Source: an uncultured Lachnospiraceae bacterium | Lineage (GTDB): Bacteria > Bacillota > Clostridia > Lachnospirales > Lachnospiraceae | Direction: 5' to 3' | DNA: 33,323 bases | Assembly (NCBI GenBank): GCA_900315735.1 | Contig: ONAD01000024.1 | Coordinates: forward strand, 1-33,323 | Part shown: piece after piece, positions 1,811 to 19,638 of the stretch | Position numbering within the stretch: position 1 is the first letter of the stretch | How the letters are laid out: every line of letters begins with the position of its first letter | Translations under genes and position numbers: made by a program | The notes under the pieces: model-generated | Databases searched by the model: none | Told to the model about the DNA's origin: nothing | The model's input: the letters and a program-made list of their open reading frames with translations, nothing else

Positions 1811-3079
1811 ATGGGAAGGAAAAAATTATTAACTGTATTGGTAGCAGCAACACTTGCATTATCCATGGTTGGATGTGGCTCTTCCGGAGGAAGTGATTCA
1901 GGAAGCACCAGCAGCGTAGCAAACAAGGATAAACCACTTTGCTGGTTTAACCGTCAGCCATCCAACAGCTCCACAGGAGAACTTGACATGGATGCATTAA
2001 ATTACAACAAAGATACCTATTATGTAGGCTTTGATGCAAATCAGGGTGCTGAACTGCAGGGACAGATGGTTCTTGATTATATCAAAGAAAATGCAGCGAC
2101 CATTGACCGTAACGGAGACGGAGTAATTGGTTATGTACTTGCAATCGGAGACATCGGACATAACGACTCTATTGCACGTACCCGTGGTGTCCGTTCTGCA
2201 CTTGGAACCGGAGTAGATGCAAATGGAGCAATTGATTCAACACCGGCTGGTACAAACGTAGACGGTTCTGCAAAAGTTGTTCAGGATGCAACACTGGATG
2301 TAGATGGAAAGACTTATACAATTCGTGAACTTGCTTCACAGGAGATGAAGAACTCTGCTGGTGCAACATGGGATGCAGCTACAGCAGGAAATGCAATCGG
2401 AACATGGACCGCATCTTTTGGTGACCAGATTGACGTAGTTGTTTCTAATAATGATGGTATGGGAATGTCAATGTTTAATGCATGGGCAAAAGATAACAAA
2501 GTACCAACCTTCGGATACGATGCAAATAGTGATGCTGTTGCAGCTATCGCAGAAGGATATGGCGGAACAATTTCACAACATGCAGATGTTCAGGCTTACC
2601 TGACATTAAGAGTGCTTCGTAATGCGTTAGATGGAGTAGACATTGATACCGGTATCGGTACTCCGGATGATGCAGGAAACTGCTTAACAGAAGGAGAAGA
2701 TTACAGATATAGTGAAGAAGAAAGATCTTACTATGCATTAAATATAGCTGTTACAGCTGATAATTATCAGGATTTCACAGACTCAACCAAGGTTTATAGC
2801 AAAGTATCCAACCAGCTGGACGCAGGCAAGAGTCCAAGCAAGAAGGTATGGCTTGATATTTACAATGCTTCCGATAACTTCCTTAGCTCAACTTATCAGC
2901 CACTTCTTCAGAACTATGACAAACTTTTGAACCTTGAAGTAGATTATATCGGTGGTGATGGACAGACAGAGTCTAACATTACAAACCGTCTCGGCAACCC
3001 GGGTGAGTATGATGCATTTGCAATCAACATGGTTAAAACAGACAATGCATCATCTTATACATCACTTCTTTCAAAATAA
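1811..3079 (+). CDS. mglB: Galactose/glucose-type ABC transporter binding lipoprotein, apparently circularly permuted
   Basis: A 422-residue lipoprotein; the ATG at 1811 follows AGGAGG, and the lipobox ends at Cys22 (SMVGC). After a Ser/Gly linker the mature protein starts with PLCWFNRQPS (residues 42-51), which equals the FFNKEPS segment ~85 residues into mature E. coli MglB. It runs through a Ca-loop (DRNGDG, 99-104), GHND (116-119), ATWDAA (185-190), SNND (212-215) and FGYD (234-237) to the usual C-terminal strand (SYYALNIAVTADNYQDF, 306-322). After a ~20-residue linker, residues 345-422 supply the missing first segment: LDIYNASDNF and DAFAINMVKT match TIYKYDDNF and KALAINLVDP. Expected sugar contacts are D355, F357, N47, H117, D119, R123, W187, N214 and D237; MglB N256 becomes Q256. 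An insertion of about 35 residues lies at 133-168. It heads the mglBAC operon and should deliver a hexose to the MglA/MglC proteins. Confidence 0.9.
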   Translation: MGRKKLLTVLVAATLALSMVGCGSSGGSDSGSTSSVANKDKPLCWFNRQPSNSSTGELDMDALNYNKDTYYVGFDANQGAELQGQMVLDYIKENAATIDRNGDGVIGYVLAIGDIGHNDSIARTRGVRSALGTGVDANGAIDSTPAGTNVDGSAKVVQDATLDVDGKTYTIRELASQEMKNSAGATWDAATAGNAIGTWTASFGDQIDVVVSNNDGMGMSMFNAWAKDNKVPTFGYDANSDAVAAIAEGYGGTISQHADVQAYLTLRVLRNALDGVDIDTGIGTPDDAGNCLTEGEDYRYSEEERSYYALNIAVTADNYQDFTDSTKVYSKVSNQLDAGKSPSKKVWLDIYNASDNFLSSTYQPLLQNYDKLLNLEVDYIGGDGQTESNITNRLGNPGEYDAFAINMVKTDNASSYTSLLSK

Positions 3080-3167: not shown

Positions 3168-4676
3168 ATGGCAGAGGATAAGAATAAATATGTCTTATCG
3201 ATTAACGGCATGAGCAAATCGTTCGGAAGAAATAAGGTTCTGAATCATATTAATCTGAATGTCAGACCTGGAACAATCATGGGACTTATGGGTGAAAATG
3301 GTGCCGGTAAATCGACAATGATGAAATGTCTCTTCGGAACTTATCAAAAGGACGAAGGAACAATAATATTAGATGGAAAAGAAGTTAATTTTTCTGGCCC
3401 AAAGGATGCACTTGAAAATGGTGTCGCAATGGTTCATCAGGAATTAAACCAGTGTCTGGAGCGCAGTGTCATTGACAATATGTTCTTAGGACGCTATCCG
3501 AAGAATTCATTGGGAATGATTGACGAAGGAAGAATGAGAAAGGAAACTTCCGATTTATTCCGTAAACTTGGTATTACTGTTAATCTGACACAGCCAATGA
3601 AAAAAATGTCTGTATCACAGCGCCAGATGTGTGAAATTGCAAAAGCAATTTCTTATCATTCCAAAGTAATCGTATTAGACGAGCCGACTTCATCACTGAC
3701 AGCACCGGAGGTTGCAAAACTTTTCAAGATGATGCGGCAGTTAAAAGAACAGGGAATTTCATTGATTTATATTTCACATAAAATGGATGAAATTTTTGAA
3801 ATTTGTGATGAAATATCAGTTCTTCGGGATGGCAACCTTGTTATGACAAAGGCAAGTAAAGATACCAATATGAATGAACTGATTTCTGCAATGGTTGGCC
3901 GTTCTTTGGATAACCGTTTTCCACCGGTAGATAACCAGCCTGGTGAAACGGTTCTTTCTATACAGAATCTTTCAACTAAGTATGCACCAAAATTACAGAA
4001 TATTTCTTTTGATATTAAAGAAGGAGAAATTTTTGGACTGTATGGTCTGGTTGGAGCCGGTCGTACGGAACTATTGGAAACTATTTTTGGTATGCGTACC
4101 AGAGCGGCAGGAAATGTAATTTATAATGGAAAAGTAATGAATTTTACATCCCCGAAAGATGCAATGGATCATGGTTTTGCTTTAATTACAGAAGAACGAA
4201 AAGCAAATGGACTTTTCCTGAAAGCAGATATTACATTTAATACTACAATCGCCAATATGAATCATTATAAAAATGGATTCGCACTTTCCAATGATGATAT
4301 GGTTCGTGCGACGGCAGAAGAAATTAAAGTCATGCATACAAAATGTATGGGACCAGATGATATGATTTCCAGTTTGTCCGGAGGAAATCAGCAGAAGGCA
4401 ATATTTGGTAAATGGCTGGAGCGCTCACCAAATATATTTATGATGGACGATCCTACAAGAGGAATTGATGTAGGTGCCAAATACGAAATATATGAATTAA
4501 TTATCAATATGGCAAAACAGGGAAAAACAATCATTGTTGTATCCTCTGAGATGCCGGAAATCCTTGGAATCACAAACCGGATCGGTGTTATGTCAAATGG
4601 ACATCTTGCCGGAATTGTTAATACAAAGGAAACAAATCAGGAAGAGTTATTAAGACTCAGTGCGAAATATTTATAA
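3168..4676 (+). CDS. mglA: Galactose/methyl galactoside ABC transporter ATP-binding protein (double ATPase)
   Basis: A 502-residue protein with two fused ABC domains, the standard length for MglA/RbsA-class ATPases. Domain 1 has a Walker A GENGAGKST (42-50), signature SVSQRQ and Walker B VIVLDEPTSSL. Domain 2 (from about residue 260) has the degenerate Walker A GLVGAGRTE usual in this class, signature SLSGGNQQK and Walker B FMMDDPTRGID. The divergence of the second nucleotide site is normal for the class. It powers uptake of the hexose delivered by the upstream binding protein, working on the cytoplasmic face of the permease encoded 19 bp downstream. GGAAG precedes the ATG. The sequence looks intact. 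Confidence 0.93.
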   Translation: MAEDKNKYVLSINGMSKSFGRNKVLNHINLNVRPGTIMGLMGENGAGKSTMMKCLFGTYQKDEGTIILDGKEVNFSGPKDALENGVAMVHQELNQCLERSVIDNMFLGRYPKNSLGMIDEGRMRKETSDLFRKLGITVNLTQPMKKMSVSQRQMCEIAKAISYHSKVIVLDEPTSSLTAPEVAKLFKMMRQLKEQGISLIYISHKMDEIFEICDEISVLRDGNLVMTKASKDTNMNELISAMVGRSLDNRFPPVDNQPGETVLSIQNLSTKYAPKLQNISFDIKEGEIFGLYGLVGAGRTELLETIFGMRTRAAGNVIYNGKVMNFTSPKDAMDHGFALITEERKANGLFLKADITFNTTIANMNHYKNGFALSNDDMVRATAEEIKVMHTKCMGPDDMISSLSGGNQQKAIFGKWLERSPNIFMMDDPTRGIDVGAKYEIYELIINMAKQGKTIIVVSSEMPEILGITNRIGVMSNGHLAGIVNTKETNQEELLRLSAKYL

Positions 4677-4695
4677 TCAGGAAGGAGCATTGGAT

Positions 4696-6348
4696 ATGGC
4701 AGACAGTAGTATTATTCTTTCATCCGCTGCAGAGGCAGAGCTTTTGAAGCCGATTGATGAATATGTAGGAAAAATACAGGCACAGATTGATGAACTTCGT
4801 AAGGATGGTTCAGACAAGGTGCGCAGCTTAAAAAATCACATTGCAATCGTAAAGGAAAATAAGAATTTAACAAAAGAAGAAAAGAGAAGAATGATTGCAA
4901 AGGACAAGGAAGCCTTAGAAAAGGCAAAAGCGGTAGAGTCTTCGAATAAAGACAAAGTATCAAAGCTTATCGCAGATGCAGAAGGTTATCTTGCAAAACA
5001 TTATAAAAATGATTACTATCAGAAAGTTGCTGATAGCTGCAAAGCTGAGAAAGAAGCAGAGAATGTGGAATACAAAAAAATATGTGCTTCCATTAAAGCA
5101 GAGCATGAGCAGAATATGAGCAGACTCAGTGATGCAGATGAGAAAAAAGATGAGAAGTATGTTTACAAGAACAAATTATTTGATGCCCAGATGGCACATG
5201 AGTCCAGACTTCAGGAGATTAAGGACAGAAAGCATGATGCATATGCACATAAGTATCATCTGATTGACTTACTTCGCATGTCAAGATATACATTTGCACA
5301 GAAGAGAGCACAGAAATTTGAAAACTATAAATATACTTTTAATACCACACAGTTCCTTTATAAGAATGGTTTGTATATTGTTATTATTTTAATCTTTATT
5401 GGTTTATGTATTATCACACCGGCTGTCAAGAATACACAGTTACTGACAATGACAAACATCTTAAATATTTTGCAGCAGGCTTCACCAAGAATGTTCTTAG
5501 CTTTAGGTGTTGCTGGTCTGATTCTTTTGACAGGTACTGACCTTTCTGTTGGACGTATGGTTGGTATGGGCATGGTAACAGCAACCATCATCATGCATAA
5601 CGGAATTAATACCGGTGGTGTATTTGGTCATATCTTTGACTTTACCGGTATCCCGGTTGCAGCAAGAGCTCTCCTTGCATTAGCAGTCTGTGTTGTACTT
5701 ACAACAGCATTCTCCATGCTGGCAGGTTTCTTTATGGCGAAGTTCAAGATGCATCCGTTTATTTCAACCATGGCAAACATGCTGATTATCTTTGGACTTG
5801 TAACATATGCAACAAAGGGAGTTTCATTCGGAGCTATTGATTCCGCAATCCCGGCAATGTTTATTCCGCAGATTGGAAAATTCCCGACAATTATCCTCTG
5901 GGCTGTTGTTGCAATTATCGTAGTATGGTTCATCTGGAATAAGACTACATTTGGTAAAAATCTGTATGCAGTTGGTGGAAATCCTGAAGCAGCAGCAGTT
6001 TCCGGTATTTCCGTATTTAAAGTAACATTAGGTGCATTTATTCTGGCAGGTATCCTTTATGGATTTGGTTCCTGGCTGGAATGTAACAGAATGGTTGGTT
6101 CCGGTAGTGCAGCATATGGACAAGGATGGGATATGGATGCTATCGCTGCCTGCGTAGTTGGTGGTGTATCCTTTACCGGTGGTATTGGTAAGATTTCCGG
6201 AGTTGTGACCGGTGTACTTATCTTTACATCCCTTACCTATTCTCTTACCATTCTTGGTATTGATACAAACCTTCAGTTCATTTTCGAAGGAATTATCATT
6301 TTAGCAGCAGTAACACTTGACTGTCTGAAATATGTACAGAAAAAATAA
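4696..6348 (+). CDS. mglC: MglC-type sugar ABC permease with a ~220-residue coiled-coil N-terminal extension
   Basis: A 550-residue protein; the ATG at 4696 has an ideal AGGAAGGAG at 4679-4687. An in-frame ATG at 4660, inside mglA, is less likely. Residues from about 226 to the end form a standard branched-chain-type sugar permease of ~325 residues with 8-10 membrane segments, including the family motif LTGTDLSVGRMVGMGM and the cytoplasmic loop GKNLYAVGGNPEAAAVSGI. Residues 1-222 are very rich in Lys, Glu, Ala and Asp with heptad-like patterns (KDKEALEKAKAVESSNKDKV) and no hydrophobic segment, so they should be a cytoplasmic helical or coiled-coil domain. Classical MglC (~336 residues) has only a short N-terminus. 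The extension is rich in Lys and Glu but in frame and with its own start signal, so it is not a misread upstream gene. Confidence 0.9.
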   Translation: MADSSIILSSAAEAELLKPIDEYVGKIQAQIDELRKDGSDKVRSLKNHIAIVKENKNLTKEEKRRMIAKDKEALEKAKAVESSNKDKVSKLIADAEGYLAKHYKNDYYQKVADSCKAEKEAENVEYKKICASIKAEHEQNMSRLSDADEKKDEKYVYKNKLFDAQMAHESRLQEIKDRKHDAYAHKYHLIDLLRMSRYTFAQKRAQKFENYKYTFNTTQFLYKNGLYIVIILIFIGLCIITPAVKNTQLLTMTNILNILQQASPRMFLALGVAGLILLTGTDLSVGRMVGMGMVTATIIMHNGINTGGVFGHIFDFTGIPVAARALLALAVCVVLTTAFSMLAGFFMAKFKMHPFISTMANMLIIFGLVTYATKGVSFGAIDSAIPAMFIPQIGKFPTIILWAVVAIIVVWFIWNKTTFGKNLYAVGGNPEAAAVSGISVFKVTLGAFILAGILYGFGSWLECNRMVGSGSAAYGQGWDMDAIAACVVGGVSFTGGIGKISGVVTGVLIFTSLTYSLTILGIDTNLQFIFEGIIILAAVTLDCLKYVQKK

Positions 6349-6514: not shown

Positions 6515-8119
6515 ATGGAAAAGTATAAAGTGATTTTAGTTGATGATGAAATAGAAGCAATCCAGGCAATGGAACAGAAGATGGACTGGGAAGCACTGGG
6601 CTTTGAAGTGGCAGGTAGTGCAACCAATGGCGTGAAAGCATTAGAACTGGTAGAAAATGTACAGCCGGATGTTGTAATAACCGATATAAAAATGCCTTAT
6701 ATGAATGGGCTGGAACTGGCGCAGAAGTTAAATAATGATTATCCAAATATACATATTATTATTTTTACAGGATTTGATGAATTTGAATATGCCAAAGAGG
6801 CAGTACATCTGGAAATTGAAGAATATATGTTAAAGCCGGTAAATGCAGTTGAATTATCTGACTGCATGAAAAGATTGAAAGAGACTTTAAACAGGGAGAG
6901 AGAAGAAAAATTAAATGTAACAAAGCTGCAAAATTATTTCCAGGATGCACTTCCGGTATTAAGGACGAATTTCTTCGTTTCTTTAATTGAGGGAAGAGCA
7001 AATGAGGAAGAATGTGAAAAATTTTTATCTGCATATCAGATTCCACTGGAAGGACCTTATTATTGCTGTGTAGTATTTCATACTTCAGAGCATCATGTAC
7101 CGGAAGGGATGAGTCCATTGCTGTTATCCATGTCGGTAGAACATGAAATAAAAGAAAGAATTGCGGCAGAACTCAATTGCCAGGAATTTATGTATCTTGG
7201 GAATACAGTTTTGATAGTATCGCTTGATTCAGAAGATAAGGCAACAGAACTGACAGATTTTTGCGATAGATTCTGCAGATGGGCGAACCGTGTGATTGGT
7301 GCAGTTGTAACGGCCGGTGTTGGAAGATATTGCGAGAGTCTTTTGAATATCAGTAATTCTTATGAAGGTGCAAGAAAAGCAGTATCCTACCGGGTTCTTT
7401 ATGGAACTGCAAGGGCTATAAATATTGCGGAAGTAGTTCCACGGGAGCAGACGGTAGCCGTACAGTCAGAAGATACAAAAATGCATGAGTTGTTTAAAAC
7501 GATTTATCTTGGAAATGTAAAAGACATTGAGTCAGCAGTAGAGAGGGAAGTGGAAAAACTTCATAAAAGTGCTGCTACAGTAAATCAGTATCATTTATCA
7601 GTTATGGAGATGGTAGGTGCTTTTTACCGGTTCTGCGCCAATAATTTTATGGACTTTAATGATTTCTTTGAAGAAAAAGAAAATCTCTATGAAAAAGTGC
7701 CGGAACTGGATAAGACTACTTTAACTGACTGGATGAAAAAGGCAGCAGTGGCAATCAGCGAAAAACTGAAAAGTGCACGAAACAACACTTCAAGACGTCT
7801 GATTACAGATGCAAAAAATATTGTGGCAGAGCGTTATATGGAACCGGATTTTTCATTAGATACGGTATGCTCTGTACTTGGTGTATCCAATTCATATTTT
7901 TCGTCAGTATTTAAAAAAGAAACCGGAAAATCTTTTATTACATATCTGACGGATTACCGGATGGATGTTGCAGCACAGCTCATTGTGGAAACCAATGAGA
8001 AAAGTTATAAAATTGGAGAAAAAGTAGGTTATCTGGACGCAAATTACTTCAGCTATGTATTCAAAAAGAAGTTTGGAGTATCTCCGTCAAAATACAGAAA
8101 ATCACCGGAACAGGAATAA
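6515..8119 (+). CDS. YesN-type response regulator with AraC DNA-binding domain
   Basis: A 534-residue cytoplasmic regulator. Residues 1-125 are a receiver domain (KVILVDDE, phospho-acceptor Asp57 in VVITDIKMP, then IIIFTGFDEFEYA and the conserved Lys in YMLKPV). The middle ~300 residues are the poorly conserved region typical of YesN proteins. Residues ~430-530 carry the two AraC-type helix-turn-helices (FSLDTVCSVLGVSNSYFSSV and GEKVGYLDANYFSYVFKKK). I start it at the ATG at 6515, which has AGAGGA at good spacing; an ATG at 6494 in frame is an alternative. The histidine kinase gene follows after 7 bp, so the two are almost certainly partners. By position it probably controls the mgl operon just upstream. 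Confidence 0.93.
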   Translation: MEKYKVILVDDEIEAIQAMEQKMDWEALGFEVAGSATNGVKALELVENVQPDVVITDIKMPYMNGLELAQKLNNDYPNIHIIIFTGFDEFEYAKEAVHLEIEEYMLKPVNAVELSDCMKRLKETLNREREEKLNVTKLQNYFQDALPVLRTNFFVSLIEGRANEEECEKFLSAYQIPLEGPYYCCVVFHTSEHHVPEGMSPLLLSMSVEHEIKERIAAELNCQEFMYLGNTVLIVSLDSEDKATELTDFCDRFCRWANRVIGAVVTAGVGRYCESLLNISNSYEGARKAVSYRVLYGTARAINIAEVVPREQTVAVQSEDTKMHELFKTIYLGNVKDIESAVEREVEKLHKSAATVNQYHLSVMEMVGAFYRFCANNFMDFNDFFEEKENLYEKVPELDKTTLTDWMKKAAVAISEKLKSARNNTSRRLITDAKNIVAERYMEPDFSLDTVCSVLGVSNSYFSSVFKKETGKSFITYLTDYRMDVAAQLIVETNEKSYKIGEKVGYLDANYFSYVFKKKFGVSPSKYRKSPEQE

Positions 8120-8126
8120 AAAGAGT

Positions 8127-10007
8127 ATGGGTCAGAAAGAAAACGGAAAGAAAAAGTACAATCAAAAGAATATTATTCAAAAGACGATACAGAATATTTC
8201 TGTCCGGCTGGATATACAGTCTATGTTTATGCTGGTTCTTTCTGCCATGACCATTGCAACAACAATTGTTATGGGATTATTGATTTATAACCGGTTTAAA
8301 ATGTCGGTAAAAGAGACTGCGATTTCCAATGCAGAAAGCAGGATAGAGAGCACAACTGACCAGGTAAACGGTGAACTGCGGAATATGAGACAGATTTGCA
8401 ATGCTATTAATTATAATATCGTACAGGAATATGATATTTCTGACCAGGAGTTCAGCAGGCAGTTCAGTCTTCTGTATGAAGTGAATAATGATAAGATACA
8501 GAGTATGGCACTTTATGACAGCAATGGAAAAATTATTGCGGCAGAGCCGGTAGCAGCCCAGAAAAAGAATCGGAAAGTGACAGAACAGGACTGGTATAAA
8601 AGTGCTACAGACGAGATAGAAAATATACATATTTCCACACCCCATATTCAGGATTTATTTGAGAATGAGACATATCAGTATAACTGGGTAGTGTCGTTAA
8701 GCAGTCTGGTGGACATGAATCAGGGTGACACTCCGGATAATGGGGTATTGCTGGTTGATATGAAATATTCCATGATAGAAGAATTACTGGATAACCTGAA
8801 TGAAGCAGCAGGGGAAACTTATTATTATTTGTGCACGGATGATGGAGAGATTCTTTATCATCCAAGAAAGGCAGAAATAGACCGGGGACTTTTTGTAGAG
8901 GAGAGCAGTAAAGCGGCCGGTTATGAAAACGGTACATATGAGCTTTCTTTGAATGGGAAAAAGGGAAATGTTGTAGTGAATAATCTATCCTATACCGGCT
9001 GGAAACTGGTAGGAGTTGTGCCGGAAGGTGTGCAGACGGCAAGTATTAATAAATTCCGGTATTATATCATTGCAACAACGATTATTCTTTTAATGATGCT
9101 TTTGATAGTAAATAAAATGATAGCAAGAAAGATTTCAAAGCCAATTCTGAAACTGGATGAATCTGTAAAATCCTATGAAACAGGTGGAAAGGCGGAAATA
9201 TATATTGGCGGCTCTTCTGAGATAAGGCATCTGGCAAATTCTGTTCAGAATTCTTATAAGCAGATAGAGCAATTGATGGAAGAAATCATCCGGCAGCAGA
9301 ATAAAAGAAGAAAAAGTGAACTGGATGCATTGCAAAGCCAGATAAACCCGCATTTCCTATATAATACACTGGAATCTATTACCTGGATGGTAGAGGCAAA
9401 TAAGAATGAAGAAGCTGTCTTTATGATTTCAGAACTGGCGAAACTGCTTCGAATCAGCCTTTCAAAAGGGAAAACAGTGATAAGGATTTCGGATGAACTG
9501 CAGCATAGCAAAAGCTATATGAACATACAGCTGATTCGTTATAAAGACAGGTTTAAAGTAGAATTCCTGATAGATGAAAAGGTAGAGAATTGCTGTATAG
9601 TAAAACTGGTGGTTCAGCCGGTGCTTGAAAATGCTATCTATTATGGTGTGGGCAATATGGATGAAGATGAAGGCGGTAAAATTACTGTCCGTGGAGAGCG
9701 CAAGGATGATGATATTTTCCTGTCTATAGAAGACAATGGAATGGGCATGAGTCAGGAAGTGGTAGATAATCTTCTGACGAATAGTGAAAAAGTTCCAAAA
9801 CATGGTTCGGGAGTTGGACTTATTAATGTGCATACCAGAATACAACTGATGTTTGGCGAGGAATATGGATTAAAAATTTACAGTGAACCGGATGAGGGAA
9901 CAAAAGTAGTGATACATATTCCGGCAATTCCTTATTCTGAAGAAAAACGGGAGGAACTTGAAAATAAGAACAGAAAAAGAGAGAGGGTAGAAGATGAAAA
10001 AAAATAA
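8127..10007 (+). CDS. YesM-type sensor histidine kinase with extracellular sensor
   Basis: A 626-residue membrane kinase. A membrane segment at about 33-54 is followed by a ~255-residue extracellular region of the dCache type (MALYDSNGKII, DWYKSA, TGWKLVGVVPEG). A second membrane segment (about 309-328) and a HAMP linker (ARKISKPILKLDESV) follow. The His_kinase box has His409 in INPHFLYNTLES, and the ATPase domain has VLENAIYYGV (N box), DNGMGM (G1) and GSGVGLINVHTR (G2). This is the usual partner of the preceding regulator. ATG 8127 follows AGGAA at 8112-8116; the frame is open further upstream inside the regulator gene. Its 3' end overlaps the next gene by 14 bp. Two binding proteins encoded directly downstream suggest indirect sugar sensing through the extracellular domain, which is inference. 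Confidence 0.92.
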   Translation: MGQKENGKKKYNQKNIIQKTIQNISVRLDIQSMFMLVLSAMTIATTIVMGLLIYNRFKMSVKETAISNAESRIESTTDQVNGELRNMRQICNAINYNIVQEYDISDQEFSRQFSLLYEVNNDKIQSMALYDSNGKIIAAEPVAAQKKNRKVTEQDWYKSATDEIENIHISTPHIQDLFENETYQYNWVVSLSSLVDMNQGDTPDNGVLLVDMKYSMIEELLDNLNEAAGETYYYLCTDDGEILYHPRKAEIDRGLFVEESSKAAGYENGTYELSLNGKKGNVVVNNLSYTGWKLVGVVPEGVQTASINKFRYYIIATTIILLMMLLIVNKMIARKISKPILKLDESVKSYETGGKAEIYIGGSSEIRHLANSVQNSYKQIEQLMEEIIRQQNKRRKSELDALQSQINPHFLYNTLESITWMVEANKNEEAVFMISELAKLLRISLSKGKTVIRISDELQHSKSYMNIQLIRYKDRFKVEFLIDEKVENCCIVKLVVQPVLENAIYYGVGNMDEDEGGKITVRGERKDDDIFLSIEDNGMGMSQEVVDNLLTNSEKVPKHGSGVGLINVHTRIQLMFGEEYGLKIYSEPDEGTKVVIHIPAIPYSEEKREELENKNRKRERVEDEKK

Positions 10008-10959
10008 ACTTACCTTTATTCTCACAGAACTGGTGCTTGTTGTACTGGCAGCATTTTTTATAAGCAGGATTTTTGCAGACAATGAACCACAGAAAAGGGT
10101 TGCGGTCATTGTGGAAGATTCCGGTGATAAGAGATGGGATGCATTATTGAACGGATTAAAGCAGTCCGCAAAAAATAATAATCTGCATTTGATTATCTGC
10201 AATACTGATTTAATTGAAAATGCAGAGGATGAGAAAGAATTAATCAATGAGCAGCTGCAGAATAATGCAGATGCATTTATAATCTGTCCGGCTCCCGGAA
10301 GGAAAACAAAGGATATGCTGGGACAACTGCAGGGGGAGAAGCCGTTTGTTCTGATTTTGGATGATGCATATACGAAAGGTACATCCGGCTATGTGACGGT
10401 AAAACCGGATAATTATAAGATGGGGCAAATGATTGCGGAGCAGCTGATACAGGATGATACAGAGCAATTGAGAAATAAAAAAGTTGGTGTTGTCCTCGGA
10501 AAGGCAGAGACGGAAGAAGCTGCAAACAGAATTGCAGGCTTAAAGGATGGACTGGAAGGGTATGACTGTGAAATTGCTTGGGAATATAATTATGCCAGAG
10601 GAAGCCAGAACATCAGTGATATAATTGCATCCAAGGAACAGGTAGATTATCTGGTAGTGTTGGATAACTGGGCGTTGGAAGAACTGGGGGAGGCAGCAGA
10701 AGAAAATAAGTATTATGGGGCACAGATTTATGGAGTTGGAAACAGTGAAAAAGCAATCGTGTTATTGGATAATCAGAATATAAAATGTCTTTTGGTTCCA
10801 GATGATTATGAGACGGGGTATATGAGTATGAATGAGATTGCAAAAAAGCTAAGGCATTCCTTTTACAAAATGAACAGTTGTGAAACAGAAGTCAGAATAA
10901 TCAATAAAGAAGATTTGTATTCAAAAGATCTGGAAAGGTTTTTGTATTCATATGAGTAG
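9994..10959 (+). CDS. Membrane-anchored periplasmic-binding-protein-like sensor component
   Basis: A 321-residue protein with one N-terminal membrane segment (LTFILTELVLVVLAAFFI, about residues 6-25). It has no lipobox, so it is probably an uncleaved anchor. The rest is a type 1 periplasmic binding fold of the Peripla_BP_4 kind: RVAVIVEDSGDKRWDALLNG, NNADAFIICPAP, KPFVLILDD and QVDYLVVLDNWALEELGEA. It overlaps the kinase gene by 14 bp and the next gene by 8 bp, which points to translational coupling and fixed stoichiometry with the kinase. The MglB sugar contacts (GH-D-R, W, NND) are not recognisable, so its ligand may differ, or it may be an adaptor between the lipoprotein and the kinase. 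It is not expected to serve the transporter. Confidence 0.82.
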   Translation: MKKNKLTFILTELVLVVLAAFFISRIFADNEPQKRVAVIVEDSGDKRWDALLNGLKQSAKNNNLHLIICNTDLIENAEDEKELINEQLQNNADAFIICPAPGRKTKDMLGQLQGEKPFVLILDDAYTKGTSGYVTVKPDNYKMGQMIAEQLIQDDTEQLRNKKVGVVLGKAETEEAANRIAGLKDGLEGYDCEIAWEYNYARGSQNISDIIASKEQVDYLVVLDNWALEELGEAAEENKYYGAQIYGVGNSEKAIVLLDNQNIKCLLVPDDYETGYMSMNEIAKKLRHSFYKMNSCETEVRIINKEDLYSKDLERFLYSYE

Positions 10960-11992
10960 AACAAGAAGAAGGACAATGGCGGTTACGGTAATACTGATAA
11001 TACTGATACTGGTGCTGCCCGGATGCAATCAGAAGACAAAACGGATAGAAAATACACTGAGGGTGAGTGTAGTTACCTATACTCATGATGATCCATTCAT
11101 CAATGCCATGGTGGATGAATTAAAAGAAGAGTTAAAGACATGGGAAACAGAAGACCGGAAGATTATTACTTCTGTGAGAAGTGCTGATAATGACCAGAAA
11201 GCTCAGAATGAAATTGTAGAGGAAATGATAGATGCCGGATGTGATATTTTATGCGTAAATCTGGTTGACCGGACGGATCCGACAACAGTTATCAGACTGG
11301 CAAGGCAGAATGATATTCCGGTTATTTTCTTTAACAGAGAACCGGTTCCGGAAGACCTGGCACAGTGGAATCAATTATATTATGTGGGGTGTGAGGCAAA
11401 ACAGTCCGGAGAGATGCAGGGAGAAATTGCAGCAGATTATATAAAGAATCACCCAGAGATTGACCGGAATCAGGATGGAAGAATCCAGTATGTTTTACTG
11501 GAGGGAGAAGCAGGACATCAGGATGCCATCAGCCGTACAGACAGCTCTGTAAAAACACTGATAGAGCAGGGAATAAATCTGGAAAAACTAAGTTACCAGT
11601 TTGCAGACTGGAACCGGGGACAGGCAGAAAACAGAATGAATCAGATTATTAACCAGTATGGGGCAGAGGTGGAGATGATTCTTTCCAATAATGATGAAAT
11701 GGCATTAGGGGCAATTGAAGCATATAAAAATGCCGGATACAGTCAGCAGGAATGGCCAATTATATTTGGTATTGACGGACTGGATGATGCATTAGAAGCA
11801 ATACAAAATGGTACCATGCAGGGAACGGTATATAATGATAAAGAGGATCAGGCGGGAGAAATTGCAAGACTTGCAGTAGATATTTATGATGGAAAAAATC
11901 AGGAAATACAAAATCTGCAGGAGGAAAAATATTATGTATCCCAGTATCGGAAAGTTGACACCAGTAATGTAGAAGATTTTTTAAAACAGTAG
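10952..11992 (+). CDS. Galactose/glucose-binding lipoprotein in normal domain order (probable sensor subunit)
   Basis: A 346-residue lipoprotein (lipobox VLPGC, Cys25) with the conventional MglB order: RVSVVTYTHDDPF (37-49), CVNLVDRTDPTTVI (101-114), IFFNREP (125-131), the Ca-loop DRNQDGRIQ (171-179), GHQDAISR (188-195), DWNRGQ, SNNDEM (245-250), FGIDGL and VYNDKEDQ. All ten E. coli MglB sugar-contact positions appear to be kept (D47, F49, N128, H189, D191, R195, W220, N247, D275, N295), so a hexose such as galactose or glucose is the likely ligand. It lies in the kinase operon and overlaps the anchored binding protein by 8 bp, which favours a sensory role, although supply to the MglA/C transporter cannot be excluded. 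It serves as the in-window reference for the permuted protein at 1811. Confidence 0.9.
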   Translation: MSRTRRRTMAVTVILIILILVLPGCNQKTKRIENTLRVSVVTYTHDDPFINAMVDELKEELKTWETEDRKIITSVRSADNDQKAQNEIVEEMIDAGCDILCVNLVDRTDPTTVIRLARQNDIPVIFFNREPVPEDLAQWNQLYYVGCEAKQSGEMQGEIAADYIKNHPEIDRNQDGRIQYVLLEGEAGHQDAISRTDSSVKTLIEQGINLEKLSYQFADWNRGQAENRMNQIINQYGAEVEMILSNNDEMALGAIEAYKNAGYSQQEWPIIFGIDGLDDALEAIQNGTMQGTVYNDKEDQAGEIARLAVDIYDGKNQEIQNLQEEKYYVSQYRKVDTSNVEDFLKQ

Positions 11993-12706: not shown

Positions 12707-12778
12707 AAAATGCATCATTTTACTAGTTGAAGTTGGCTGATGAAAGCATATGAGTAGAAGTAAAGGGTGGTGCTGGAA

Positions 12779-14710
12779 ATGAGTCTGGTTTTTACCAATG
12801 ACAACTGTATTGGTTGTAACAAATGTATTCGCGTATGTCCTTGTCCAGGTGCATGCGTATCAGTGACGACAGAGGAAGGGAAGGAACGGATTCAGGTAGA
12901 TCCGGCAAAGTGCATTGCGTGTGGTGCGTGTATGGATGCATGCAAGCATGGTGCGAGAGAATATGAAGATGATACGGAACAGTTCTTTGCGGATTTGGCA
13001 AAGGGAGAGAAGATTTCCATTCTTTTAGCTCCGGCATTCAAGGCAAATTATCCGGAAGATTATGAACGGGTATTAGGTGGTTTGAAGAACCTTGGAGTAA
13101 ACCGTATGATCAGTGTATCCTTTGGCACAGATATTACAACCTGGGGATATCTTAATTATGTAAAGAAATACAACTTTACCGGTGGAATTTCCCAGCCATG
13201 TCCGGCAATTGTGGGATACATTGAACACTACTTACCGGAGCTTCTTCCAAAGCTTTTCCCGGTACATAGTCCGATGATGTGCAGTGCAATTTATGCAAAG
13301 CAGGAGATGGGTGTAACAGACAAGCTGGCATTTATCAGTCCCTGTGTAGCAAAGTGGTCAGAGATACATGATTCGAATACAGAAGGTTACATATCCTATA
13401 ATGTGACCTTTGACCATTTGATGAAATATGTAAGAGAGCATAATATATCCGGCGCATCTGTCAGTGATGAAATAGAATATGGACTGGGTTCCATCTATCC
13501 GATGCCGGGTGGTTTAAAGGAAAATGTATACTGGTTCTTAGGAGAAGATGTTTATATCCGCCAGATAGAAGGTGAGAAGCATGCTTACCATTATCTGGAG
13601 AGCCACAAAGAGGAAATTGCAAAGGGAATGAATAAGGAGTTATTCATCGATGCATTAAACTGTGGCATGGGCTGTATTTACGGAACCGGTGTAGAAGATG
13701 AAATCGCAAGGACAGATACCGCATTATATAATATCCATCAGATACAGGAGAACTGTAAGAAGAATACGAAGAACAGTGCATGGTCAAGAAAACTGACTCC
13801 GGCACAGCGCCTTGCAAAATTAAATAAGCAGTTTTCAAAATTAAAGTTGGAAAATTATCTTAGAAAATATACGGACCGCTCAGAAGAGTGTAATTATAAG
13901 CTTCCATCTGCAGAAGAACTGGATCAGATTTATAATGAGATGGATAAGAAGACGAAGAAAGCAAGATGTATCGATTGTGAATGCTGTGGCTATGAAAGCT
14001 GTGAAAAGATGGCGTTTGCTATTTACAATGGATTCAATAAGAAGGAAAATTGTATTCATTTTGTAAAGGATACGGTAGAAGACGAGAAGCAGAGGGCATT
14101 AGAGCTTGCTGATGAAATCAAGGCAGAAAAAGATATGGTAGTAAAACAGCAGGAGAACATTAAGACAACGGTGGAAACCGTCAATGATTTATTTGTTTCT
14201 CTCTATGATTCCGTAGATGATATGGTCAACGGAAATGAAAGCAATGCAACGGAGTGCAGTGCCGTATCACAGGAGATTGGCAATGTCTCAGAATTCTGTG
14301 AGAAGCTGACCAGCAGAATGCAGGAGATAGATACTCTGTTAGAATCCATGGCAGAGAATAATCAGGAAGTGGTTTCCATTGCTGCACAGACGAATCTTCT
14401 GGCACTGAATGCCAATATTGAGGCAGCCCGTGCAGGAGAGGCAGGAAGAGGGTTTGCAGTAGTTGCGGATGAGATAAATAAGCTGGCGATGAATTCCAAG
14501 GATACAGCATCCCGAAGCACAGAGAGTCAGGCAAAGGTAAAAGAATCCATTGCGGAGATTATCAAAGATGCGGATGAGCTGGCAAATGTTGTAAATGATA
14601 CCGGCAACCGGATTCAGAATCTTGCCGCAGCAACGGAGGAGATTGCAGCATCGTCCAATGTAATTTTAAGTGCAGCAAATAGTGTGAAGAGCACACTGGA
14701 ACAATTATAA
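12779..14710 (+). CDS. Sensory [FeFe] hydrogenase fused to a methyl-accepting chemotaxis signalling domain
   Basis: A 643-residue cytoplasmic protein starting at the ATG at 12779 behind GGTGG; a GTG at 12767 is the alternative. Two ferredoxin-type clusters are bound by C10/13/16/20 and C45/48/51/55. The H-cluster domain follows: L1 SQPCPAI (C141), L2 SPCVAK (C189) and L3 NCGMGC (C295, C299), so all four H-cluster cysteines are present. The proton-relay cysteine of catalytic enzymes (first Cys of TSCCP) is Pro140, and the conserved Met of L3 is Leu293. A third Fe-S motif (C400/C403/C408/C425) precedes a coiled coil and an MCP tip ([18 protein letters not shown], 537-554). There is no membrane segment. 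This matches the chemotaxis-linked class of group C [FeFe] hydrogenases, proposed H2 or redox sensors that signal to CheA. An ECF-like membrane protein follows after 29 bp. Confidence 0.92.
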
Positions 14711-17518: not shown

Positions 17519-19638
17519 ATGCGCATACAACTTGCAGCTACCATCCGTAAATATGATAAGAAAAATCTTCCAAAGGATATTTTAGCCGGCATTATTATTA
17601 TGGCGGTTTCCATTCCGATAGCTATGGGCTATGCACAGATTGCGGAACTTCCGGCAGTCTATGGTCTGTATGGTTCCATTTTCCCAATTCTGATATTTGC
17701 ATTGTGTTCAACTTCGCCACAGTTTATTTTTGGTGTAGATGCGGCACCGGCAGCCTTAATCGGTTCGGCACTGGTAGGACTTGGTATTGAGAGCGGAAGC
17801 AGTGAAGCAATTGCAGCAGTGCCGGTACTTACTTTCTTTGTGCAGTCTGGTTATTGGCGTTTTATTTTATGAAAGCAGGAAAACTGGTGAACTATATTTC
17901 GGCACCGGTTATGGGTGGATTTATTACCGGAATCTGCACCACGATTATTCTGATGCAGGTACCAAAGTTAATGGGCGGTACCGCCGGCGTTGGAGAACTC
18001 ATTGAGCTGGCAGAGCATATCGGGCAGACGAAGGTGAATGTGCCATCCCTGATTTTAGGCGGCATTTCCCTTCTGATACTTCTTGTATCGAAGAAAGTAA
18101 TGCCGAAATTTCCAATGGCAGTGCTTTTAATGGCAGCAGGAGCAGTAATGACAAAATTTTTGCCGGTGAGGGAATGGGGAATCCAGACGCTGTCTGCAGT
18201 AGAACCGGGACTTCCACAGTTTGTGATTCCGGATATCCGCATGCTTCCGATGAAAGAGGTAGTAACTATCAGCCTTTCGGTGGCAGTGGTTATTATGGCA
18301 GAAACGCTTCTGGCAGAAAATAATTTCGCACAGAAGAATGGATATCGAATGAATGATAATCAGGAAATTTTTGCATTCTCCATGGGAAATTTTCTGGCAG
18401 CATTTACAGGCTGCTGTCCCATTAATGGCTCTGTTTCAAGAACTGCAATGGGAGAACAGTATCAGAGTAAGACACAGCTGACCGGAATCATAGCTGGTTT
18501 ATCCATGCTGGTATTGCTGCTTTGCGGAACCGGATTTATCGGCTATCTGCCAATTCCGATGCTGACGGCAATTGTAATTTCAGCACTACTTGGGGCAACG
18601 GAATTTGAGCTTGCTGCAAGATTGTTGAAGGTCAGCCGTACAGAATTCTTCATTTTCTTAGGAGCATTCTTTGGCGTGCTGATGCTTGGAACCATCAATG
18701 GCGTTTTGATTGGCATTATACTTTCCTTTACTGAGATGATTATCCGTACTGCCAAGCCATCAAGATGTTTTCTTGGAATCCAGCCGGGACATCGTCATTT
18801 CCGGGATTTAAAAGAAAGCCATCAGATACATGCGATAGAAGGCGTTCTGATATACCGGTTCAGCAGTAATCTCTTTTTTGCTAATGTGCAGATATTAAAG
18901 CGGGACATTGAAGACAATATAAAAGAAGATACGAAGGCAGTCATTTTAGATGCCAGTGCTATCGGCTCCATGGACATTACAGCGGCAGATCAGTTGGAAA
19001 TGCTGTATCAGAGCCTTAAGAAACGTGGTATCTGTTTTTATATTACAGAACATATTGCAGATTTGAATGAACAGATGCGAAAGCTTGGTCTGGGACACAT
19101 CATAGAAGAGGGCAGCGCAAGAAGAACAATACATATTGCTTTAAAGGATATGGGTTATGAACGTCCTTATCCGCTGGAGGGCGGTGTAGATAATAAACAG
19201 CGCAGTGCCTCAAGAAAGCGGGCGGATAACCGGGTGCAGGAATTTGTCTGGGCATTTGGTTCGGAAAGTGAAGATGCGATAGAGCGGCAGATTGTGGCAC
19301 AGATAGAACAGCTGAAAAAGACAGGAGATGTGGAAAAGCTGTTACATGGAAGCTGGTCCCATATGGAAGAATTGGACGAAGACGAGTGGCTGGAGCATTT
19401 AGAGGAGCATTTGAAAGAGATTGTTAATATTTCCGGTAAAGATGAAAGAACGCTGGCTATGCGGTTAGAGGAACATCGACGGGAAGTACATGAGCGTATT
19501 GCAAAGGAACATCCGGAACTGGCAGAGCGATTTAAAGAACGCCGGCATGCGTTAGACGAACATCTGAAGGAACGGAGACCGGAGGTTTATGCACTGGTAG
19601 AGGACTTAAGGGAAAAACGGACTTCAGGAAAGATTTAA
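17519..19638 (+). pseudogene. SulP-family anion transporter with STAS domain, split by a single frameshift
   Basis: Two overlapping frames encode consecutive parts of one SulP (SLC26-type) transporter. The first (17519-17872) runs from the N-terminus through AGIIIMAVSIPIAMGYAQIA to VPVLTFFV and then goes out of frame, ending WRFIL-stop. The second frame carries on the family sequence as AVWLLAFYFMKAGKL and NYISAPVMGGFITGI to a stop at 19638. The break is a net -1 shift near 17840. Frame 1 has stops at 17788 and 17803, so the shift must lie after those. The second part holds the remaining membrane segments, a STAS domain (about 18810-19130; ILDASAIGSMDITA) and then an extra ~165-residue highly charged tail rich in Glu, Arg and His. 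It may be a recent pseudogene, a phase-variable allele or a sequence error. The second part is otherwise intact, which argues for a recent event. Confidence 0.82.

Follow-up and report, generated by a model that had tools for sequence, protein, structure and literature searches.

We report a stretch of 33,323 nucleotides from an uncultured Lachnospiraceae bacterium (contig ONAD01000024.1; hereafter the window), in which the gene at 1811–3079 encodes a sugar-binding protein of the MglB family whose segments, by sequence comparison, stand in the order of a circular permutation of MglB. Our reading, which we hold at a probability of close to nine in ten, is that this predicted lipoprotein captures D-glucose or D-galactose and passes it to the adjacent MglA–MglC importer, that the permutation had a single origin, and that a downstream two-component system exerts control. 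The permutation as such is already known, and the window protein joins, as a real and well-supported member, the class described for MglB-2 (Tp0684) of Treponema pallidum (Brautigam et al., 2016; PMC4990184). An earlier note on this DNA knew of no naturally permuted binding protein in the family; this was wrong, and a claim to the first natural permuted sugar-binding protein is rejected on the MglB-2 precedent.

In the proposed mechanism, the moved C-terminal piece would fold as strands 1–3 of lobe 1, as the crystal structure of the homologue and a predicted model support, and the two-lobed clam would close on its sugar as in ordinary MglB. The predicted lipoprotein would be anchored through its new N-terminus just ahead of old strand 4, and it follows from the segment order that the lipid anchor should lie on a different face of the protein. 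D-Glucose or D-galactose would be captured between the lobes, and docking on MglC would occur as for ordinary MglB. A usual route to circular permutation is duplication, fusion and trimming; here, a single event, probably tandem duplication and fusion followed by loss of the outer parts, may lie at the root of a transporter subtype whose MglC also bears a helical extension. The downstream two-component system would control expression, with its own binding proteins keeping the ordinary order. If glucose or galactose import is indeed the function, this type of uptake system would be common among gut bacteria.

The open reading frame starts at 1811, preceded by a strong ribosome site, AGGAGGAAAAAAGAATG, and the lipobox cysteine, Cys22, is almost invariant (38 aligned rows). 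The Peripla_BP_4 (PF13407) match covers residues 64–275 and enters only at profile position 91, while PF18610 (Peripla_BP_7) matches residues 344–413 with an expectation value (E) of 4.9e-41 and 139.2 bits against a gathering cut-off of 36.8. The moved piece thus belongs to a family whose Pfam model, 71 positions long, is this piece alone; its predicted strands are 344–350, 375–381 and 402–405. Strands 1–3 of ordinary MglB are not at the N-terminus of the window protein, as judged by the Pfam layout and by alignment to solved MglB. VIA-align matched residues 32–325 of the predicted model to several MglB structures, among them 5kws and 2fvy. The breakpoints and the linker of about 20 residues proposed in the earlier note hold up, as do its segment ranges, although its label 'mature' was wrong, since the numbers are those of the precursor.

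The closest comparison is with MglB-2. Brautigam et al. (2016) solved this protein at 2.05 Å, described it as circularly permuted with the lobe strand order 5-4-6-1-2-3, and showed that it binds glucose with a ligand-induced conformational change (PMC4990184). According to the same paper, the topology occurs in spirochaetes and in Gram-positive bacteria, many of which live as gut commensals; the name 'Type Ic / Cluster Bc' ligand-binding proteins was proposed for the class, and the idea of membrane tethering as a selective force for permutation is already raised there. MglB-2 structures in the PDB are 5JX2, 6BGC and 6BGD, the 2018 structures being identified here by their PDB titles. The Lachnospiraceae protein and T. 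pallidum MglB-2 are homologous over their full length in the same permuted order (E 4.7e-91, about 43% identity), with the same fold by predicted model. The structural alignment of the predicted model to MglB-2 runs across the linker, and residues 323–344, a candidate fourth cross-over between the lobes, correspond to the stretch of MglB-2 that PMC4990184 describes as a 'fourth hinge'. In the region of a putative Ca2+ loop like that of MglB-2, Asp99, Asp103 and Gly107 stand in all 113 aligned rows (the window protein and 112 others; 102 distinct) and Asn101 in 111 of them. The permuted order itself was seen in 113/113 rows.

The sugar-contacting positions point to the ligand. Ten glucose-contacting positions of Escherichia coli MglB were taken from Table 2 of PMC4990184 and mapped by eye from printed alignments rather than by superposition. 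Nine are as in E. coli (Asp355, Phe357, Asn47, His117, Asp119, Arg123, Trp187, Asn213 and Asp237), and the tenth is Gln256 in place of E. coli Asn256, the same glutamine as in MglB-2. MglB-2 shares the whole set of contacting positions, except that its Asn311 stands where the window protein has Asp355, the counterpart of E. coli Asp14. With this aspartate, the window protein may retain galactose better than MglB-2 does. Nine of the ten positions are invariant in the 113 rows, and Asp119 is kept in 112.

The permutation was tested with a rotated protein in which residues 341–422 were put ahead of residues 39–325. Against the NCBIfam MglB profile (NF011924), the score rose from 88.1 bits in native order to 97.5 bits after rotation, with the match crossing the artificial junction (profile 27–188); both values are far below the equivalog cut-off of 420, which was reached in none of 299 genomes sampled from the phylum. 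The rotated protein also aligned across the junction with solved MglB, for instance 3gbp and 5kws (query 5–174 on chain residues 9–170). In the 5kws alignment, the matches quoted in the earlier note (IYNASDNF with IYKYDDNF, AFAINMVK with ALAINLV) fell in register. Compared with E. coli MglB, the body is homologous and the moved piece is in register with the N-terminus, but the segment order differs.

Profiles were then built from 13 ordinary transport MglB (O), from 53 MglB-like lipoproteins of the kind encoded at 10952 (B) and from both sets (OB), and 87 permuted rows including the window (84 distinct) were scored with 20 shuffles per row, 1740 in all. The mean gain of the rotated form over the body alone was 14.1 (O), 13.0 (B) and 16.6 (OB) bits, with a range of 5.2–17.1 bits for O, compared with native-order gains of 1.9, 0.4 and 2.3 bits. 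The largest gains among all shuffles were 7.8, 9.4 and 8.6 bits; the smallest row gains (5.2, 5.5 and 8.3 bits) fall below these overall maxima, yet the rotated form exceeded its own 20 shuffles in every one of the 87 rows. A homologue from Treponema saccharophilum, 44% identical to the window protein, gained 20.9 (O), 9.0 (B) and 16.5 (OB) bits on rotation, against shuffle maxima of 5.1, 5.9 and 6.7 bits (200 shuffles each). At the family level, HHalign of the rotated family to MglB spanned 298 columns (5–366 on 50–355 of 356) and scored 167.2, compared with 147.3 for the body alone and at most 155.3 when a column-shuffled C-terminal piece was put in front (60 shuffles); against set B, the values were 204.2, 182.7 and a shuffled maximum of 188.5.

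For the distribution, sample counts include the window's own genome, which has PF18610 once. This Pfam family was present in 2/398 genomes sampled from the phylum, 4/391 from the class and 32/299 from the Lachnospiraceae. A scan of genome contigs from about 85,000 species gave 571 pattern matches, of which 545 are relatives of the binding protein. The 80 best loci (L012–L091) were retained, nearly all titled Lachnospiraceae or similar Firmicutes, and segment order was checked for these 80 loci only; one of them, L055, is from the cultured commensal Roseburia faecis. A 69-row tree built on the shared body unites the permuted proteins in a single clade (support 100) that sits on a long stem. The ordinary lipoproteins of the 10952 type fall instead with transport MglB (support 89), outside that clade, and descent of the permuted gene from its ordinary neighbour is therefore unsupported. 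Unrooted trees of the ATPase and of the permease core (27 rows each) place T. saccharophilum on the permuted side with supports of 100 and 99. Among the ordinary-order MglB-like operons, that of genome G270 (L121) has the MglA closest to the window's (51%, against 45–47% for others). On a plasmid of Agathobacter rectalis (L217 11878–22155), the genes of the binding protein and the importer are accompanied by the sensor pair and by another two binding proteins; a MobA/MobL gene, integrases and a transposase gene lie in the 11 kb upstream.

Several observations weigh against parts of this reading. The assignment of D-glucose or D-galactose as ligand is drawn from the conserved positions and from MglB-2. 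The single origin is drawn from quick trees, and the tree tool cautions that these join long branches, one of which is the permuted stem. No relic of the duplication route was found, and no dedicated search was made for intermediates with both ends duplicated; two longer homologues, P0016 (525 residues) and P0066 (479 residues), contain only direct repeats of permuted-protein sequence within the chain, which are either assembly artefacts or real duplications. When the PDB is searched with a limit of E 10, the profile of the C-terminal piece alone brings up no ordinary MglB, and on single proteins its score never exceeds 7.5 bits. HHalign gives the piece E of about 0.003 with a probability of 9–12%, and its score of 25.0 against the MglB-like set is equalled by shuffles (maximum 25.5, n = 60), whereas against transport MglB its 24.5 lies above the shuffle maximum of 17.3. 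Of the two segments that the earlier note proposed to align separately, the body matches Peripla_BP_4, whereas the C-terminal piece alone is not significant against MglB. For this reason, the claim of permutation rests on the piece fitting in register with the rest.

These weak matches leave room for the piece having come from another gene and having merely converged on the missing strands, an origin that Brautigam et al. (2016) allowed for MglB-2, where the moved part has 13% identity (PMC4990184). Low pairwise identity and the lack of significance of the isolated piece speak for such a donor, but the in-register gain on rotation beats all own shuffles in each of the 84 distinct rows and also in T. 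saccharophilum. Further evidence came from a profile of 31 C-terminal pieces (A3), which was scored on 15 MglB, on 53 MglB-like lipoproteins and, from the same phylum, on 26 Peripla_BP_4 proteins of other kinds, leaving aside a 27th that proved to be permuted itself. Scores above 0 were obtained for 10/15, 32/53 and 1/26, and scores above 3 bits for 4/15, 16/53 (20/68 together) and 0/26, respectively. The best place ended in the first 140 residues in 15/15 MglB and 51/53 MglB-like proteins, although this was also so in 10/26 of the others, with scores of at most 1.4; only 18 of these 26 yielded any alignment. Given the low scores, the placement is support, not proof, for the moved piece being MglB's own. 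The piece is probably MglB's own segment, and we regard an outside donor as unlikely; the tests favour a true permutation on a question left open in the 2016 paper. An assembly error that swapped segments of the gene has a practically negligible probability, being refuted by the 112 further rows of the same order and by a solved structure.

It could also be argued that the protein serves chiefly in sensing or chemoreception and not as the binding protein of the importer. Among the 80 retained loci, 62 extend 9.5 kb downstream, and 48 of these have there the ordered set of response regulator, histidine kinase and two binding proteins; one orphan permuted protein (L009) has neither MglA nor MglC in its 19.5-kb locus. 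However, MglA and MglC directly follow the permuted gene in 71/71 loci having 3.5 kb downstream, the sensor cluster brings its own pair of binding proteins, and it is incomplete at this place in 14 of the 62 loci. A predominantly sensory function is, in our judgement, quite improbable. The orphan gene (L009 9639–10901) lies beside GGDEF- and HD-domain-like genes, as read by eye, and by alignment its product is the single row of 113 with isoleucine at the 119 position; this protein is possibly a sensor.

Control of the operon by the downstream sensor cluster is likely by analogy with other two-component systems linked to binding proteins. In XylFII–LytS (5XSJ) and in CuaD of Ruminiclostridium cellulolyticum (PMC10384115), as these sources describe them, a binding protein is likewise paired with a histidine kinase and a response regulator near a sugar importer. 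Unlike in those cases, two binding proteins adjoin the kinase here, and the one belonging to the importer has the permuted order. The second downstream binding protein is the MglB-like lipoprotein at 10952–11992; the earlier note took it as the ordinary-order comparison within the window, rightly, as it matches Peripla_BP_4 almost from end to end and is collinear with NCBIfam MglB over 24–343 (232.7 bits, below the cut-off of 420). In the window's genome (94% complete), no second ordinary MglB importer was found: a search with this lipoprotein brought up only itself and the permuted gene, and a permease search gave one match.

The permease carries a charged N-terminal extension that is probably cytosolic, because it precedes the first membrane helix, and that matches no Pfam family. 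Its predicted model is all helical, with a helix over residues 72–155 that would form a long stalk; the predicted local distance difference test (pLDDT) is mostly 87–94 over residues 30–200 and the predicted template-modelling score (pTM) is 0.51. A survey of 82 loci (L010–L091) gave 73 complete permeases, three cut by contig ends and six loci without a match. At the permuted loci, 72/73 complete permeases have 508–563 residues; the remaining one (L090) has 385 residues and is preceded by a separate 175-residue open reading frame. At ordinary-order MglB loci, a permease matched in 14/15 cases, all of 333–360 residues. The extension was present in 31 of the 299 family genomes, all among the 32 with PF18610; in the 32nd (G970), the contig stops about 1.5 kb past the binding-protein gene, too early for a permease. 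For the window's family, these counts document a rearranged importer whose permease is extended. The T. saccharophilum plasmid pTS2 (L216 8914–13402) encodes the permuted protein, MglA and a 562-residue permease with a homologous extension (31% identity over 136 columns, E 3e-12).

Permutation of the binding protein and extension of the permease are inherited together. Their association is no independent proof of a functional link, because both traits share one history. Tentatively, permuted MglB, MglA and extended MglC may constitute a distinct co-inherited importer subtype of Lachnospiraceae and treponemes, in which the moved anchor and helical stalk changed docking, assembly or switching, with the extension as a regulatory platform. 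The extension is an unexplained part of the importer and, with its close companionship to the permuted protein, is worth follow-up.

Table 1. Coordinates of the permuted gene, its parts and its neighbours in the window.
Feature	Position	Strand	Evidence
Circularly permuted MglB-type sugar-binding protein, predicted lipoprotein, 422 residues	1811..3079	+	Open reading frame; ribosome site; PF13407 and PF18610; full-length MglB-2 homologue
Predicted lipoprotein signal, residues 1–22, lipobox MVGC, Cys22	1811..1876	+	Read by eye; Cys22 conservation
Residues 41–322, MglB strand 4 of lobe 1 to old C-terminus	1931..2776	+	Peripla_BP_4 match; VIA-align
Residues 323–344, linker between old C- and N-termini	2777..2842	+	Between the two matched parts
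Residues 345–422, corresponding to the first ~78 residues of MglB (strands 1–3), PF18610	2843..3076	+	PF18610 match; rotation tests
MglA-type sugar ATP-binding cassette ATPase	3168..4676	+	NCBIfam MglA, 676 bits, under cut-off 828
MglC-type permease with N-terminal extension, 562 residues	4660..6348	+	NCBIfam MglC, 283 bits, residues 228–562 only, under cut-off 386
Helical MglC extension, ~228 residues, predicted cytosolic	4660..5343	+	No Pfam family; model; conserved in permuted operons
Response regulator, receiver and AraC-type helix-turn-helix	6494..8119	+	Pfam
Sensor histidine kinase with dCache domain; start uncertain, overlaps regulator	8055..10007	+	Pfam
Binding protein adjoining sensor pair, ordinary order	9994..10959	+	Peripla_BP_4 1–254 of 258
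MglB-like lipoprotein, ordinary order	10952..11992	+	Peripla_BP_4 2–257 of 258

Two further genes lie downstream. At 12767–14710, an iron-hydrogenase large-subunit domain with 4Fe-4S motifs is fused to a chemoreceptor signalling domain, and the product looks like a hydrogenase-derived sensor. At 17519–19638, what reads by eye as a SulP-like anion transporter is apparently split over two overlapping frames, possibly by a frameshift.
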